From: Candidatus Latescibacterota bacterium
Lineage (GTDB): Bacteria; JAAXHH01
Reading direction: 5' to 3'
DNA: 64,000 bases
NCBI GenBank assembly: GCA_022821085.1
Contig: JAJEEG010000002.1
Coordinates: forward strand, 186,001-250,000
Shown piece after piece: positions 37,037-44,064 of the stretch (the stretch's first letter is position 1; the number at the start of each line of letters is the position of its first letter). Below the pieces are notes generated by a model. That model was not told where the DNA came from. It saw only the letters and a program-made list of their open reading frames with translations, and searched no databases. Made by a program: the position numbers and the translations under genes.

Positions 37037-37897
37037 CTATCCGATCGCCGCGAACCAGTCCGTTCCGAACTGCCTCTCTGCCGCCGCGATGCGTTCCGCG
37101 CTGCCGAGATCCGCCCACCGGGCTTCTTCGGCCCGAAAGGCCCGAATTGATTCGCCCGTGCTCGCCAGGTCCAGGAAGTAATCTATGATCGAAAAGGGAC
37201 CGGCCTCTTTCATTCTCGCGAGCGCATGCGGGGACATGGCGTAGACGCCCATGAAGGGCAGGGGAGTGACCTCGCCGTGCGACGGCCGGACTGGCCGGAC
37301 CATGCGAGTCTCGCCGGTAACATTCGACCGCCACCCGCAGAGGACGTATTCCTCGTCGAAGAGCAGGTGACGCGAACTCTTTCGTTCCTTCACGGCGACG
37401 GTGACCAGGGCATCCGACGCGCGGTGGGCATCCGACGCCGTATGGGCATCCGACGCGAGGTGGGCACTCGACGCCGAACCGGTTTCCGGCGCGAGGTGGA
37501 CACTCGACGCCGAACCGGTTTCCGACGCGCGGTGGGCCTTCATCAGCTCGGATAGATCCAGGTCGGTCAGCACGTCCACATTGTGCACCAGGAACGGTTC
37601 TTCGCGGTTGAAGAAACCCGCGGCCTTCCTAACCCCGCCGCCCGTGTCCAGGATCTCCTCCTCCACGGAAACGGTCAGCGAAACGCCGGGACCATCGTAC
37701 GCGGCCGAGTAGGCCTTGATTTGTTCCGCGAAATGGTGGGCATTGATGATGATGTCGGTGAAACCATGCCGGGCGAGCCGCGCGATAACCCAGTAAAGCA
37801 TGGGCTTGCCGGCCACCTTCACCAGGGCCTTGGGCCGGTCGTCGGTAAGGGGCCGGAGCCGGGTACCCAGGCCGGCCGCGAGGATCATGGCCTTCAC
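37037..37897 (-). CDS. Sugar-1-phosphate nucleotidyltransferase (MurU-like)
   Basis: 286 residues, GTG start at 37897 overlapping the upstream stop as GTGA. NTP-transferase signature LAAGLGTRLRPLT at 6-18, then RPKALVKVAGKPML, VEEEILDTGGGVRKA and a late RWADLGSAERI. MurU in Pseudomonas makes UDP-MurNAc from MurNAc-1-P in a peptidoglycan recycling bypass; the preceding gene encodes the matching kinase type, supporting this role. Residues about 122-163 are an insertion of ETGSASS/HLA/SDAH repeats absent from relatives, in a loop after DLSELMKAHR. Mannose-1-P guanylyltransferase-like activity is an alternative. Confidence 0.82.
   Translation of the reverse strand: MKAMILAAGLGTRLRPLTDDRPKALVKVAGKPMLYWVIARLARHGFTDIIINAHHFAEQIKAYSAAYDGPGVSLTVSVEEEILDTGGGVRKAAGFFNREEPFLVHNVDVLTDLDLSELMKAHRASETGSASSVHLAPETGSASSAHLASDAHTASDAHRASDALVTVAVKERKSSRHLLFDEEYVLCGWRSNVTGETRMVRPVRPSHGEVTPLPFMGVYAMSPHALARMKEAGPFSIIDYFLDLASTGESIRAFRAEEARWADLGSAERIAAAERQFGTDWFAAIG
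37409..37534. repeat. 3 x 18-bp + 2 x 36-bp tandem array in the MurU-like gene
   Basis: Units at 37409-37426, 37427-37444 and 37445-37462 (GGCATCCGACGC core), then 37463-37498 and 37499-37534 (each with CGACGCCGAACCGGTTTCCG). All in frame. The 36-bp unit looks like an 18-bp unit expanded and then duplicated. Confidence 0.92.
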
Positions 37898-39330
37898 GAG
37901 TCCTCCTGCTCACGGTGCCTCAGCCGGACCGTCAAGCCCGGACGCTCTTTCAAGTGCGCCGCCAGCCGCTCAGCGAAGTACACCGATCGGTGCTGTCCGC
38001 CCGTGCACCCGAAGGCGACGGTCAGGTCCGTGAACCCGCGACGAAGGTGGTGTTCGACCGCCCGGCCGACCATGGTCTTCGCATCCCTCAGGAAGGACTG
38101 CGCCTCCTCGAGTTCGTCCAGAAAGGCGGCCACCGGTGCGTCCTTACCCGTCAGATCCGCATATTCGGGAATACGGCCGGGGTTCTTCACGATCCGGCAG
38201 TCGAAGACGAACCCGCCGCCGTTCCCGCTCGGATCCCGGGGCAGGCCGAGGTGATATGAAAAGCTCCAGAGGTGGACGGTCAGTCCTTCGCCGGAAACCT
38301 CGCCCATGCGCCGAAGCCCAGGATCGTCGACGATGCGCGACCAGGCCCGGTTCAGTTCAGGCAGGTCGACCGGCAGGCCGGCCCGCGCCAACAGGCCCTC
38401 GAGGTTACAAACGCCGTGGGAGATACTGGTCAGGAAGTGGGACTTGCCTTCGTACAACCCGCGGTACCCGTAGGCGCCCAGCGCCTGCATGAGGCGGACC
38501 AGGGCGTAACCCCAGTAGTGGGCGAGGAACGTATCCTGGAGAAGAGGGGTATACGCGCCGGCCGCTTCGACGTAGTGTTCCAGGAGCTCGTCCCGGGTCT
38601 CCCAGGGGATTTCGGCCCTGGCGTCCTGCAGGAGTGAGGCCACGTCGTATTGTAGCGCGCCCTGCCGCCCGCCCTGGTAGTCGATGTAGTGCGGCCTGCC
38701 CTCATGCAGCATGATGTTCCGGGACTGGAAGTCGCGGTACAGGAAGTAGCGGGTATCGGCTTCCAGCAGGAACGCCGTGAACCGTTCGAAATCGTTTTCA
38801 AGGGCCTGCTCGTCGAAGTCGATGGGCACGAGTTTGAGGAAATGGTACTTGAAGTAGTTCAGGTCCCAGCGGATGGACTGCGCGTCGAACCGGCTCCTGG
38901 GGTAACAGATCGAGAAGTCCAGGTCCGCCGCCGCGGTGACCTGGAAGCGGGGCAGGTCGTCGAGTACCTGCCTGTACATCGCGACCGTCTGATCCGGGAA
39001 GGCGCCATCCTCCGCTCGCTTGGCGGCCACCCGGGCGTACAGCGTCTCGTCTCCAAGGTCCTGCTGCAGGTAGACGCCCTGTTCCAGGTCCTCGGCGTAG
39101 ATCTCGGGCACCGGCAGGCCGTGGCGGCGGAAGTGGCGGGACAGGGAAAGAAAGGCGGCGTTCTCCCGGCGGTCGGCGTTCGTCGCGCCGACGACGGTCC
39201 GTCCCCCGTCCGCCATCCGGTAATACCGCCGCCTCGAACCGTCCGCGCCCAGGGCGCCGATGCGCGACGGCGCACGGCCGAACGTTCGGCGGAAGAGACG
39301 TGCCAGCCTGTCCGGGGCATCACGATTCAT
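37894..39330 (-). CDS. AmgK-like sugar kinase fused to a RapZ C-terminal domain
   Basis: 478 residues. The N-terminal about 330 form an aminoglycoside-phosphotransferase fold: YRDFQSRNIML (D200, N205) and HYIDYQGG (D217) as catalytic and metal sites, like the anomeric MurNAc/GlcNAc kinase AmgK. The C-terminal about 130 match the RapZ C-terminal domain (FDCRIVKNPGR, LTGKDAPV, VAFGCTGGQHRSVYFAERLA), which in E. coli binds glucosamine-6-P; the RapZ N-terminal P-loop domain is absent. Overlap with the MurU-like gene makes a recycling pathway likely. Similar fusions occur, to my knowledge, in Bacteroidota. Sugar sensing by the C-domain is inference. Confidence 0.88.
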   Translation of the reverse strand: MNRDAPDRLARLFRRTFGRAPSRIGALGADGSRRRYYRMADGGRTVVGATNADRRENAAFLSLSRHFRRHGLPVPEIYAEDLEQGVYLQQDLGDETLYARVAAKRAEDGAFPDQTVAMYRQVLDDLPRFQVTAAADLDFSICYPRSRFDAQSIRWDLNYFKYHFLKLVPIDFDEQALENDFERFTAFLLEADTRYFLYRDFQSRNIMLHEGRPHYIDYQGGRQGALQYDVASLLQDARAEIPWETRDELLEHYVEAAGAYTPLLQDTFLAHYWGYALVRLMQALGAYGYRGLYEGKSHFLTSISHGVCNLEGLLARAGLPVDLPELNRAWSRIVDDPGLRRMGEVSGEGLTVHLWSFSYHLGLPRDPSGNGGGFVFDCRIVKNPGRIPEYADLTGKDAPVAAFLDELEEAQSFLRDAKTMVGRAVEHHLRRGFTDLTVAFGCTGGQHRSVYFAERLAAHLKERPGLTVRLRHREQEDS

Positions 39331-39337
39331 GTCCGCT

Positions 39338-40246
39338 TCACCCGGGCCGCTTCATGATCAGGAGCAGGGGTCTGTGGTCGGTGGGATACATCCGGCGCGC
39401 GTCGTTGTTGTTGTCGAGGATGACGTAGACCCGGTCGCGGTCCATGGCGAGCCCCTCCGCCGTTTTCGCGCCGAACTGTTCGTGCTGATAGAGGTATTCC
39501 GGGTCGTTGACGATATGGGCGAAGGACCAGATCGTCGAGGGACTGTCCACGTCCAGGTACCGGATGGTCCTCCGGATGGTCGCGGTGCTTCGCTGCAGGA
39601 TGTATACGTTTTCGACCTCCCGGTGGAGGCCCGTGTAACTGTCTGCCAATCCATGGTTGGCGATCTCCACGATCCGCTGCACCGGGGCCATGTCGACTTC
39701 GATCAGGCCGCAGGGCTCCCGCTCCGCGGTGACCAGGAACCGGTCCCGGGCCATCAGCGTGATCCCCTCGAGATACCCGCCGCGCGTCTGGAACAGCCCC
39801 GCCGAAGCGCCTACTTTCCGGAGGCTCGTGGTGACCCAGGATGCCTTCTTTCCGTCCGCTTCGACCTTTAGAATGGCGAACGCCCCTTCGCTGGCGAGAT
39901 AGAAGATCCCGTCGTCATCACGGGTGATGCCCTCCAGGTCCAGCCTGAACACACCGAAGGGTCTGGGCGCCTCGAACCGTATATGCGGAACGAATACCGC
40001 GACATCCTCCCGGAGCTCGATCCGGAAGATGGTATCGTCGTGCTTGTCGGAAACGGTATACAGGGTGTCGTTGTGGACGAAGAGTCCCGATGGCTGGTTG
40101 GATTCGGGACCCTCGACGGGGAGGACGCTGATGGCTTCGAGGAGGACCGGGCTTTCCTGTGCTGAGGCTGCCCTGGGAATGCACAGCAGGACCGAAGCAC
40201 ATAAGGCGAGCGACGCGAGAAGGAGGCGGAAACCCCTACTCCCCAT
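39338..40246 (-). CDS. Secreted beta-propeller (SdiA-regulated/phytase-esterase-like)
   Basis: 302 residues with a signal peptide (LLLASLALCASVLLC to AASAQ). Repeating blade-like segments (GLFVHNDTLYTVSDKHDDTI, LEGITRDDDGIFYLASEG, YLEGITLMARDRFLVTAE, AEGLAMDRDRVYVILDNN) fit a beta-propeller of the SdiA-regulated or 'esterase-like phytase' type. The acidic repeats could bind calcium. Its start lies 11 bp inside the OppA-type gene and it is followed 7 bp later by the kinase-RapZ gene, so it belongs to the same transcript. Enzymatic activity unproven. Confidence 0.7.
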   Translation of the reverse strand: MGSRGFRLLLASLALCASVLLCIPRAASAQESPVLLEAISVLPVEGPESNQPSGLFVHNDTLYTVSDKHDDTIFRIELREDVAVFVPHIRFEAPRPFGVFRLDLEGITRDDDGIFYLASEGAFAILKVEADGKKASWVTTSLRKVGASAGLFQTRGGYLEGITLMARDRFLVTAEREPCGLIEVDMAPVQRIVEIANHGLADSYTGLHREVENVYILQRSTATIRRTIRYLDVDSPSTIWSFAHIVNDPEYLYQHEQFGAKTAEGLAMDRDRVYVILDNNNDARRMYPTDHRPLLLIMKRPG

Positions 40247-41915
40247 CTTCCACCTCGGCGATGTAGAGGTTTTGCCAGCGGAAGTAACCTACAGTGCCGT
40301 CGTCATTTACGTCATAGCCCTTCAACCAGGGCTTCCGGAGCTGCAGGCCCATCTTGTGATAGAGGAACGCGGCAGGATAGTCCGCCACCTGGACGACCGA
40401 GGCTTCCCGGTACAAGTTTTCCCGGATCTCCGGATTCAGTTCGGCGGCGGCCGCATCCACGAGGCGGTCGAAGGCGGGATTGTGCCAGTCCTGCCGGCCG
40501 TGGCCCCGGGGCTGGGAGTGCCAGATCATGTCCAGCATGTTGCGGGGATCGAGGAAATCGGCGCCGAAGGCGATCAGGCCGAGGTTCATGTTCCATTTAT
40601 ACAGATGGTCCATGTAGGTGTGCAGGTCGGCCGTCCGGATGTCCAGGTCGACGCCGAGATGCTCTTTCAACATGCTCTGTATCGCCACGCCGATCAGGCG
40701 GTCGGAGGGCGTTGGGGCCCTGAGCCACAGCTCCTGCCGCGGGAAACCCTGTCCCCCCGGATATCCGGCCTCGCGCATCAGTTGCCGCGCCCGTTCGGGA
40801 TCGAAGCCTTGCACCGCGGCGTGCGTGTCCCCCTCGAACTCCCTGAAGCCAGGCGGGATCATGGAATAGGCCGGTACGGCCCCGCCCCGCAGGATGACGT
40901 TGCACAGGTTGTCTCGGTCCATCACCCGGGTGAAGGCTTCACGGACGCGAATGTCGTTGAAGGGCGGCAGCTGCGTCCTGAAGAACAGATACCAGGTATT
41001 CAATCCGTGAAAACGGACGAGATCATTCCTCAGATCGGGATCCCCCTCGATGCGGGCCAGGTCGTTCACGTCCACGTTCTCCATGTCGACCTCGTCGCTC
41101 TCGTAGGGAAGAATGGTAGCCGCGGCCGCGTTGCGAAAAGGGTGTATCACCTTCTCCAGGAAAGGCTTGTGGGGGCCGTTGTAGTAGGGATTGGGTACAA
41201 GCGTCATGTGGCTGCCGTTGACCCACTCCGTGACCATGAATCCGGAATTCGTGATGATGTTTTGCGGTTCGGTCCACTTGCGGCCGTATTTGTCCACGAG
41301 GCGCTTCGGCACCGGCATGGCGTCGCCGAAAGAGACGATATGGGGCAGATAGGGCGCCCGCTTTTCCGTCTCGATGACCAGGGTCGTATCGTCCACGGCC
41401 CGGATGCCCAGGGACTCGAGGTCCTTGTTCTCCCCCTTGACGATCGCTTCGGCGTTCTTGATGTCGTAGTAGAAGAAGGCGTAGATGTTGGTGGATTCGG
41501 GATCGAGCATCCGGCGGTAGGAATACACGAAGTCGTGGGCCGTCAGCGGCGATCCGTCGCTCCAGCGCATCCCGGACCTGAGGTTGAAGGTCCAGACGAT
41601 CCCGTCTTCCGACCCCCAGGTGTGCGCGGCGCCCGGGATCGGGTTCCAGTGCTCGTCCTTGAACAGCAGGGCCTCGAAGGGAAGGATCGTCTGCTCGGTA
41701 TCGTAGGGCTCGATACTGGGGTCCAGGCTCTTGGGCTCCGGACTCATGGACCGCAGCACCTGTCGGGAGGCGTCTGCCGCGTCGTCCGGGAGTACCACGC
41801 CGATCGAGTTTACGCGGCCACCTTCCGTGGTGGTCGTCGGCTGTTCCCCGCCGCGTTCACCTTCTCCGCAGGAGACCAGCAAGAAGATCGAAACAAGTAC
41901 TGCGGGAGTGCGCAT
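40236..41915 (-). CDS. Peptide ABC transporter substrate-binding lipoprotein (OppA-like)
   Basis: 559 residues. Lipoprotein signal IFLLVSCGEG. SBP family 5 signature LRSGMRWSDGSPLTAHDFVY and SYRRMLDPE; later AFTRVMDRDNLCNVILRGG. Typical oligopeptide-binding OppA/MppA size. In some bacteria such proteins bind murein tripeptide, which would fit the adjacent wall-recycling genes, but no permease genes are near and the ligand is not predictable. It follows htpG after 39 bp. Confidence 0.9.
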   Translation of the reverse strand: MRTPAVLVSIFLLVSCGEGERGGEQPTTTTEGGRVNSIGVVLPDDAADASRQVLRSMSPEPKSLDPSIEPYDTEQTILPFEALLFKDEHWNPIPGAAHTWGSEDGIVWTFNLRSGMRWSDGSPLTAHDFVYSYRRMLDPESTNIYAFFYYDIKNAEAIVKGENKDLESLGIRAVDDTTLVIETEKRAPYLPHIVSFGDAMPVPKRLVDKYGRKWTEPQNIITNSGFMVTEWVNGSHMTLVPNPYYNGPHKPFLEKVIHPFRNAAAATILPYESDEVDMENVDVNDLARIEGDPDLRNDLVRFHGLNTWYLFFRTQLPPFNDIRVREAFTRVMDRDNLCNVILRGGAVPAYSMIPPGFREFEGDTHAAVQGFDPERARQLMREAGYPGGQGFPRQELWLRAPTPSDRLIGVAIQSMLKEHLGVDLDIRTADLHTYMDHLYKWNMNLGLIAFGADFLDPRNMLDMIWHSQPRGHGRQDWHNPAFDRLVDAAAAELNPEIRENLYREASVVQVADYPAAFLYHKMGLQLRKPWLKGYDVNDDGTVGYFRWQNLYIAEVEDGE

Positions 41916-41954: not shown

Positions 41955-43895
41955 CTAAACCCGGATCAGTTCCTTGACAAGCAGGTCGTTGATCCGGCCC
42001 GCGAACCCCACGGGATCGTCGAGCTTGGACCCTTCGGCCACCACGGCCTGCTCGTAAAGCAGGCGGCCGATGGATTCGACGCGCGCGTCGGCGCTGTCGC
42101 TGTCGTGTAGCTTCTGCAATCCCTGGACCACGGGATGTCCGGCGTTGAGTTCCAGGATGCGCTTGGCGTCCTGGGCCCCGCCTTCGCCCATGCGCTGCAT
42201 GAGCCGTTCCATGTGGGCGCTCATGGCGCCTTCGTCGGCCACCAGGCAGGAGGCGCTGTCCCTGAGGCGCGTGGACAGCCGGATATCCTGCACCTCCGGG
42301 ATCTTGCCCTTCAGGGTTTCGATCAGGGCCTTGAAGGTCTTCTCGTCGTCCTCCGCCCTGGCCTTGTCGGATTCGCCGGCCGCGATGTCGCCCTTGTCGG
42401 CCGCCTTGTACTTCTTCTCGCGGTACTCGTCCACCGACGACATGACGAATTCGTCGATGGGGTCCGTCATGAAGAGGACGTTCCAGCCGCGATCCCGGAA
42501 GACCTCCAGGTAGGGTGTCCGCTCGAGCATGCCGCGGTGCTCGCCGATCAGGTAGTAGATCTCCTCCTGGTCGGGCGGCATCTGGTCGACGTATTCATCC
42601 ATGGAAATGTACTTCCCGGCCTCGGTGTTCATGGACTCGTACACGGCGAGGGAGGTCAGGGTGTCCCGGTTCTCGAAGTCCTGCGCCATCCCCTCCTTGA
42701 GGATCAGGCCCAGTTCCCTGTAGAACGCCACGTACTTGTCGAACTCGTCCTTCTTCATCTCCTCCAGCACGGTGAAGATCCGCTTTACGATGTTCTTCCG
42801 GATGCGGTCGAGGATGGGATTCTGCTGCAGGATCTCGCGGGAGACGTTGAGGGGCAGGTCCGCGCAATCCACCACGCCCTTGATGAAGCGCAGGTAGGGC
42901 GGCAGCAGCTCCTCGCAGTTCTCCATGATCTGGACCCGCTGCACGTACAGCCTGGGTCCCACCTTGGGGTCGCCGAACATCATGTCGAAGGGCCGCTTCG
43001 CCGGGATGAAGAGCAGGACCTTGAACTCCGTCAGCCCCTCGGCCGTATAGTGGATCACCTTGGCCGGATCGCCGTAGTCGTGGGAGATCTGGCGGTAGAA
43101 GGCGTTGTACTCGTCTTCTTCGATCTCGTCCTTCGAACGCAGCCAGAGCGCCTTCATGGAGTTGAGCGTCTCTTCCCGGACCACCGCCTCCGTCTTGTCG
43201 TCCTCCCTGTCGTCCTCGCCCTCGACGGGTTCGTGCCGTTCCACGTCCATGACGACCGGGTACTCGATGAAATCGGAGAACTCCTTGACCACCTGCCGGA
43301 GCCGCCATTCCTCCAGGAACTCCTTCTCGTCCTCCTTGAGATGGAGCGTGACGTCGGTCCCGTGCGTCTCCTTCTCCACGGTCTTGATGGTGAACTCGCC
43401 CTCTCCCGCGGAGATCCAGCGGACGCCCTGTTCCTTCGGATCGCCCGCCAGGCGAGAGACCACCGTCACCCGGTCGGCCACCATGAAGGCGGAGTAGAAT
43501 CCCACGCCGAACTGGCCGATCAGATCGGGACGGCTGGCTTCGTCCGCCTGCTGCAGGGTTTCCAGGAAGGCCCTGGTGCCGGACTTCGCGATCGTGCCCA
43601 GCTGGTCGATGATGGTTTCGCGGGACATCCCCGTGCCGTTGTCGGAAACCGTCAGGGTGTTCTTGTCCTTGTCGGCGATGAGCTTGATCTTCCACTCGGT
43701 GTCGCCGTCGAGCAGGTCGCTGTTGTTGATGGAATTGAAGCGGATCTTGTTGATCGCGTCGCTGGCGTTGCTGATCAGCTCGCGGAGGAAGATTTCCTTG
43801 TTGGAGTAGAGCGAATGGGTGATCAGGTGCAGGATCTGCCGCAACTCGCTCTTGAATTCCATGGTTTCGGTGGACGTAGCAGGTGCTTCGGACAT
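41955..43895 (-). CDS. htpG: Chaperone HtpG (Hsp90)
   Basis: 646 residues from the ATG at 43895, chosen for the AGGAAAGG site; an earlier in-frame ATG (43946) would add 17 unconserved residues. Family blocks: ELRQILHLITHSLYSNKEIF, LRELISNASDAI, VSDNGTGM (GHKL ATP site), IGQFGVGFYSAFMVAD, and a middle domain containing GVVDCADLPLNVSREILQ. No C-terminal MEEVD, as in bacteria. ATP-driven chaperone for client folding under stress. Transcription probably starts at the consensus promoter about 170 bp upstream. Confidence 0.97.
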   Translation of the reverse strand: MSEAPATSTETMEFKSELRQILHLITHSLYSNKEIFLRELISNASDAINKIRFNSINNSDLLDGDTEWKIKLIADKDKNTLTVSDNGTGMSRETIIDQLGTIAKSGTRAFLETLQQADEASRPDLIGQFGVGFYSAFMVADRVTVVSRLAGDPKEQGVRWISAGEGEFTIKTVEKETHGTDVTLHLKEDEKEFLEEWRLRQVVKEFSDFIEYPVVMDVERHEPVEGEDDREDDKTEAVVREETLNSMKALWLRSKDEIEEDEYNAFYRQISHDYGDPAKVIHYTAEGLTEFKVLLFIPAKRPFDMMFGDPKVGPRLYVQRVQIMENCEELLPPYLRFIKGVVDCADLPLNVSREILQQNPILDRIRKNIVKRIFTVLEEMKKDEFDKYVAFYRELGLILKEGMAQDFENRDTLTSLAVYESMNTEAGKYISMDEYVDQMPPDQEEIYYLIGEHRGMLERTPYLEVFRDRGWNVLFMTDPIDEFVMSSVDEYREKKYKAADKGDIAAGESDKARAEDDEKTFKALIETLKGKIPEVQDIRLSTRLRDSASCLVADEGAMSAHMERLMQRMGEGGAQDAKRILELNAGHPVVQGLQKLHDSDSADARVESIGRLLYEQAVVAEGSKLDDPVGFAGRINDLLVKELIRV

Positions 43896-44064
43896 CGTCT
43901 GGCCTTTCCTCATGAACAGGGGAGTGGGTTGCTCCCGGATGGGCATGCCGTCCCGGGCCGTGATTTACGCCCGGATACAACGCGTTCGGTTGATTTTCCA
44001 ATGGTGAAACGTGGCGCTTTCCGCCGGTCTGCTGTCCGCTCGCGAAGGCCCGGACAACATGCGT

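Follow-up and report, generated by a model that had tools for sequence, protein, structure and literature searches.

A RapZ C-terminal domain fused to an AmgK-like kinase is a movable module beside MurU-like nucleotidyltransferases

Two described systems bear on the locus reported here. In Pseudomonas and Caulobacter, AnmK produces MurNAc-6P, MupP removes the 6-phosphate, AmgK phosphorylates C1 and MurU generates UDP-MurNAc; Caulobacter has all four proteins and lacks MurQ (PMC5371407, PMC13046382). Tannerella forsythia lacks MurA and MurB and forms its UDP-MurNAc precursor out of free MurNAc: as its murK mutant accumulates UDP-MurNAc-pentapeptide, a route from MurNAc to UDP-MurNAc must exist there (PMC5790795). 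The second system is RapZ/YvcJ, known as a GlcN6P sensor and GlmZ adapter. The C-terminal domain of E. coli RapZ binds GlcN6P with nanomolar affinity (PMC7073468), and in its crystals T248 and G249 hold sulphate or malonate through their backbone, together with H190, H252 and R253 (PMC5737377). The protein needs H190 and loses function in C247A and even C247S mutants; the same study raises a catalytic role of the thiol as a possibility, and in its structure with GlcN6P there was density for a chemically transformed product (PMC9841335).

Anatomy of the fusion and its MurU-like partner

Within the 64,000-nucleotide stretch analysed here (the window), the original prediction described APH catalytic motifs followed by FDCR..NPG and FGCTGGQHRSVY in one frame, with a GTGA-overlapped nucleotidyltransferase behind it. 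This underlying observation was confirmed: YRDFQSRN, IDYQGGR, FDCRIVKNPGR and FGCTGGQHRSVY share a single frame (Table 1), on which Pfam places APH at residues 27-254 (E 1e-12) and RapZ_C (hereafter RZC) with a score of 116.6 bits against a cut-off of 27. The catalytic Asp, catalytic Asn and metal-binding Asp of APH kinases are all present, as the invariant D200, N205 and D217. For an AlphaFold2 model of the full-length fusion, built on 47 family members, the top-ranked Foldseek match was 3CSV, an APH-type kinase. The RapZ equivalog model reached 104 of 244 bits, below its cut-off; the N-terminal half of the fusion is APH, without a Walker-A domain. Conservation of RZC matches or exceeds that of the kinase half, with 24/125 invariant positions compared with 39/311. 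A family-by-family search of the window genome returned this one RZC and no separate RapZ.

The proposed AmgK- and MurU-like identities stood as the nearest named families, at scores that mark both proteins as divergent. The best NCBIfam match of the kinase half is AmgK (71/550 and 63/500 bits, below the equivalog cut-offs). AmgK was the best kinase model in every fusion copy scanned (49-71 of 550 bits), and no other kinase family was reported in these scans. For the window nucleotidyltransferase, MurU was the best of 34 models at 129/250 bits, short of the equivalog cut-off, and it was the top nucleotidyltransferase model in every copy scanned (127-148 of 250 bits). As in the AmgK/MurU salvage systems of Pseudomonas, Caulobacter and Legionella, an APH-type kinase gene overlaps an NTP-transferase gene, and the AmgK and MurU genes of Legionella adelaidensis have the same short overlap. 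However, the window system has an extra RapZ_C module, its kinase scores 49-71 bits against cut-offs of 500-550, and a clear MupP is absent from the HAD proteins scanned in the window genome. Its catalytic and substrate motifs are also altered, with YRDFQSRN, GGRxG and YGxRG where canonical AmgK (Legionella) has HRDYHSRN, DAMWG and IFCRL. Judged by these scores, the two enzymes are divergent relatives of AmgK and MurU; as both fall far below the equivalog cut-offs, their substrate is one that we infer. The nucleotidyltransferase gene also contains a coding minisatellite, which adds about 40 Ala/Ser/Asp/His-rich residues to the enzyme and differs strongly in length between genus members.

An OppA-type binding protein had been placed in the same transcript as a possible importer of muropeptides. 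The gene is indeed present upstream, and the cassette of OppA-type, propeller, fusion and MurU-like genes is intact in 9/9 genus-mates examined (69-95% identity by gene); it is absent in 3/3 more distant relatives examined, so import by OppA is a genus-level hint only. An HtpG gene (41955-43946) lies 39 bp upstream of the OppA-type gene. The FliG, YebC and DUF3822 neighbours were considered as functional clues and rejected, as they mirror the gene order of the lineage.

Table 1. Features of the fusion locus and of related loci in other contigs
Feature	Position	Strand	Remark
MurU-like nucleotidyltransferase, 286 aa	37037..37897	-	best NCBIfam match MurU
Coding minisatellite in nucleotidyltransferase	37409..37537	-	36-bp unit, 3.6 copies
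GTGA stop/start overlap of fusion and nucleotidyltransferase genes	37894..37897	-	sequence
Kinase-RapZ_C fusion, 478 aa	37894..39330	-	single reading frame; AlphaFold2 pLDDT 91, pTM 0.78
RapZ_C domain (RZC), residues 350-475	37906..38283	-	Pfam 351-475, E 1e-33
CTGGQHRS, residues 442-449, RapZ anion pocket, fits CxxGxxRS	37984..38007	-	pattern in 68/68 domains
Gly385, at the RapZ pocket His190 position	38176..38178	-	alignment to RapZ
APH-type kinase domain, about residues 5-316	38383..39318	-	nearest AmgK; nearest solved structure 3CSV
Metal-binding motif IDYQ, residues 216-219	38674..38685	-	Asp217 invariant; within IDYQGGR 216-222
Catalytic loop YRDFQSRN, residues 198-205	38716..38739	-	Asp200 and Asn205 invariant
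Phytase-like / SdiA-regulated beta-propeller gene	39338..40246	-	7 bp upstream of fusion
OppA-type (SBP_bac_5) binding protein	40236..41915	-	Pfam; head of genus-level cassette
RapZ_C + MurU-like nucleotidyltransferase fusion	L114:6237-7382		unlike the window's fusion
Window-genome AnmK frame overlapping SpoIID-family gene frame, then LptE-like gene	L131:6133-8806
Mislabelled fusions	L140:5992-7422 and L139:5992-7422		public annotation RNase adapter RapZ conceals kinase half

Distribution and shuffling of the RapZ_C module

A scan of GTDB species genomes found at least 594 stretches encoding relatives of the fusion, from which 80 full-length fusions with 44-55% identity were retained. These come from Bacteroidota, Acidobacteriota, Ignavibacteria, Calditrichota, Elusimicrobiota, Gemmatimonadota and other groups, which rules out a chance or rare event. 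The cross-phyla survey that had been suggested thus returned a widespread fusion; in 50/80 relatives the next gene downstream, on the same strand, is MurU-like. Among the Bacteroidota genomes sampled, RZC occurs in 20/148, as a free protein of 134-149 aa in three genomes, and a RapZ-length frame was found in none of this sample. The nucleotidyltransferase start of Parabacteroides distasonis overlaps the fusion stop, like in the window. NCBI labels the fusions of P. distasonis and Bacteroides finegoldii "RNase adapter RapZ" (WP_005858754.1, WP_237923178.1), and our literature search found no paper treating RapZ and AmgK together. While the fusion architecture is common, the novelty lies in the shuffling of its modules, in the public mislabel and in a phosphatase reading of the RapZ C-domain that can be put to the test.

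The shuffling is seen in the phylum of genome G023, where this type of RZC is present in 10/24 genomes, 8 of which also have a genuine RapZ elsewhere. It is fused to the kinase at two loci (L112, L113), while at four (L108-L111) it is a free gene of 144-164 aa that adjoins the kinase gene and mostly also the nucleotidyltransferase gene. At two more (L106, L107), free RZC adjoins the nucleotidyltransferase and the kinase is unlinked (G072:C39, G068:C55), and in G022 (L114) RZC forms the front part of a fusion with the nucleotidyltransferase, with the kinase encoded by the gene before it. The kinase was kept in 15/15 checked genomes with this RZC type, and an order-mate of the window genome (G014, 83% complete) has neither RZC or fusion nor kinase. 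Since RZC is found free or fused to either enzyme and the kinase accompanies it in 15/15 genomes, we regard it as an obligate third component of the kinase/nucleotidyltransferase route: it is a movable module, more than a regulatory tail of the kinase. Genome G068, which lacks AnmK, has an unlinked anomeric-kinase relative and, behind it, a gene for a sugar kinase of the BadF/NagK type (L128:4481-6566; NagK model 51 bits).

Pocket and fold of RZC

Loss of the RapZ_C pocket residues had been named as a way for the original prediction to fail. The outcome is mixed: across 81 fusion copies, C247, T248, G249, G250, H252, R253, S254, D182 and R184 (RapZ numbering) are kept in 98-99%, and the one that gave way is H190, which is Gly in 98%. 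True RapZs are themselves not uniform at position 190, having H, Y, F or N. The W191 position is Arg or Lys in the fusion family, and a Gly-rich SGNGGG loop is added. When 68 domains of both kinds were compared, the invariant positions included D182, R184 and the GCTGGxHRS loop, so that the pattern CxxGxxRS is found in 68/68, with a strand on one side and a helix on the other. This pattern is that of the active-site loop of PTP/DSP cysteine phosphatases. The likeness extends to the anion, which RapZ crystals show bound by Arg and the backbone (PMC5737377), whereas the fold has no match among these enzymes and the residue before the Cys is Gly rather than His. Modelled alone (pLDDT 93, pTM 0.89), RZC matched the E. 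coli RapZ C-terminal domain 5o5s (E 4e-10) and nothing else convincingly: no PTP/DSP or other phosphatase fold was among the best 50 Foldseek rows, and Pfam found no recurrent phosphatase family on the 68 domains. Homology to the PTP fold was rejected; the lone Rit1 DUSP-like Pfam match (E 0.28, 1/68) is at chance level. Compared with RapZ/YvcJ, RZC shares the C-terminal fold and the CTGGxHRS pocket, but it lacks the Walker-A N-terminal domain, has Gly at H190 and the SGNGGG loop, and occurs free or joined to a kinase or nucleotidyltransferase. We know of no RapZ C-domain with demonstrated catalytic activity.

Wall-recycling context and candidate functions

The window genome has AnmK and a MurA homologue (352 bits, just below the cut-off), and MurQ was not found in it. 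The reading frames of AnmK and a SpoIID-family gene overlap (Table 1); SpoIID-type enzymes release anhydro-MurNAc ends, the substrate of AnmK. Across the window's clade, AnmK is present in 15/15 fusion genomes and MurQ in 0/15, and G014, the order-mate without fusion or kinase, has MurQ. The presence of MupP was judged solely on seven HAD_2 matches in the window genome, one of which matches the MupP model at 58/359 bits; a phosphoglycolate-phosphatase-like HAD protein could perform the MupP step. With AnmK, no MurQ and no clear MupP, MurNAc-6P would have nowhere evident to go, unless it is dephosphorylated by RZC or by a HAD enzyme that was not recognised. Among 49 fusion genomes outside the clade, AnmK is present in 40 and absent in 9, and MurQ is present in 26, so mutual exclusion of the fusion and MurQ holds in the clade and fails elsewhere. 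AnmK is not enriched with RZC in Bacteroidota (15/20 with RZC versus 43/60 without, p = 1), nor significantly so in the phylum of G023 (7/10 versus 4/14, p = 0.095), and we no longer took such enrichment to prove peptidoglycan recycling. In G073, AnmK and the operon are about 1.6 kb apart.

We tentatively favour a divergent branch of MurNAc or amino-sugar salvage in which RZC is a third module that handles a sugar-6-phosphate, most likely catalytically and in place of MupP. The kinase half would phosphorylate the anomeric carbon of recycled MurNAc or a close amino sugar, and the overlapping nucleotidyltransferase would then yield the UDP-sugar, with flux presumably running in this direction. 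The CTGGxHRS pocket of RZC would bind an amino-sugar 6-phosphate, and its cysteine-based CxxGxxRS loop would most likely strip off the 6-phosphate, the task of MupP in Pseudomonas, providing the kinase with free sugar. The proposed reaction is the same as that of MupP, but MupP has a HAD fold to which RZC is unrelated, and phosphatase activity of RZC is hypothetical. The case for catalysis is limited by the failure to find a phosphatase fold, by AnmK being unenriched in Bacteroidota and by the occurrence of MurQ in about half of the non-clade fusion genomes. We consider doubtful the more ambitious claim that the RapZ C-terminal domain uses its cysteine as a phosphatase or phosphotransferase of amino-sugar 6-phosphates, replacing MupP in a widespread AmgK/MurU-type route, and that the RapZ regulator descended from this enzyme.

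Ranking close behind the catalytic reading is a possible role of RZC as an allosteric sensor of GlcN6P or a related sugar phosphate that switches the AmgK-like kinase and tunes wall recycling to amino-sugar status, as the original prediction held; that interpretation is partly supported overall. The nanomolar affinity of the RapZ C-terminal domain for GlcN6P (PMC7073468), the retention of most pocket residues and the joining of RZC to a pathway kinase all suit such a sensor, although Gly replaces H190. Free RZC, nucleotidyltransferase-fused RZC and an unlinked kinase would be unexpected for a kinase-specific appendage, even if a trans-acting sensor could fit, and with RZC also free or fused to the nucleotidyltransferase, GlcN6P gating is not the sole natural reading. 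It is rather unlikely that the two enzymes make some other nucleotide sugar or polyol derivative instead of one from MurNAc or GlcNAc, with RZC serving that pathway. AmgK and MurU scores well under the cut-offs, the departure of the kinase signature from canonical AmgK (Legionella) and the non-wall neighbour genes of most loci point that way; against it, no other kinase family was reported in the scans and MurU leads the nucleotidyltransferase models in every copy. Very improbable, finally, is an RNA- or RNase-adapter module acting as in E. coli RapZ, with post-transcriptional control of amino-sugar genes. The domain is the same, and the E. coli RapZ pocket binds the GlmZ backbone (PMC9841335), but the RNA-contacting R238 is Phe in 95% of copies and K251 is Gln in 98%. 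K194 and R211 are unconserved, though K170, R184 and R196 are mostly retained; the RapZ N-terminal domain is missing from the fusion, and RNA binding by RapZ has been described as restricted to Enterobacteriaceae (PMC7073468).

At least in the Bacteroides and Parabacteroides records, a likely wall-salvage kinase is hidden by a wrong RapZ label. The shuffling of RZC offers a fresh way into the question of how the RapZ C-domain acts on GlcN6P. Tannerella belongs to the same family as Parabacteroides, a carrier of the fusion, and the shuffling may also bear on how Bacteroidota, such as this MurNAc auxotroph, obtain UDP-MurNAc.
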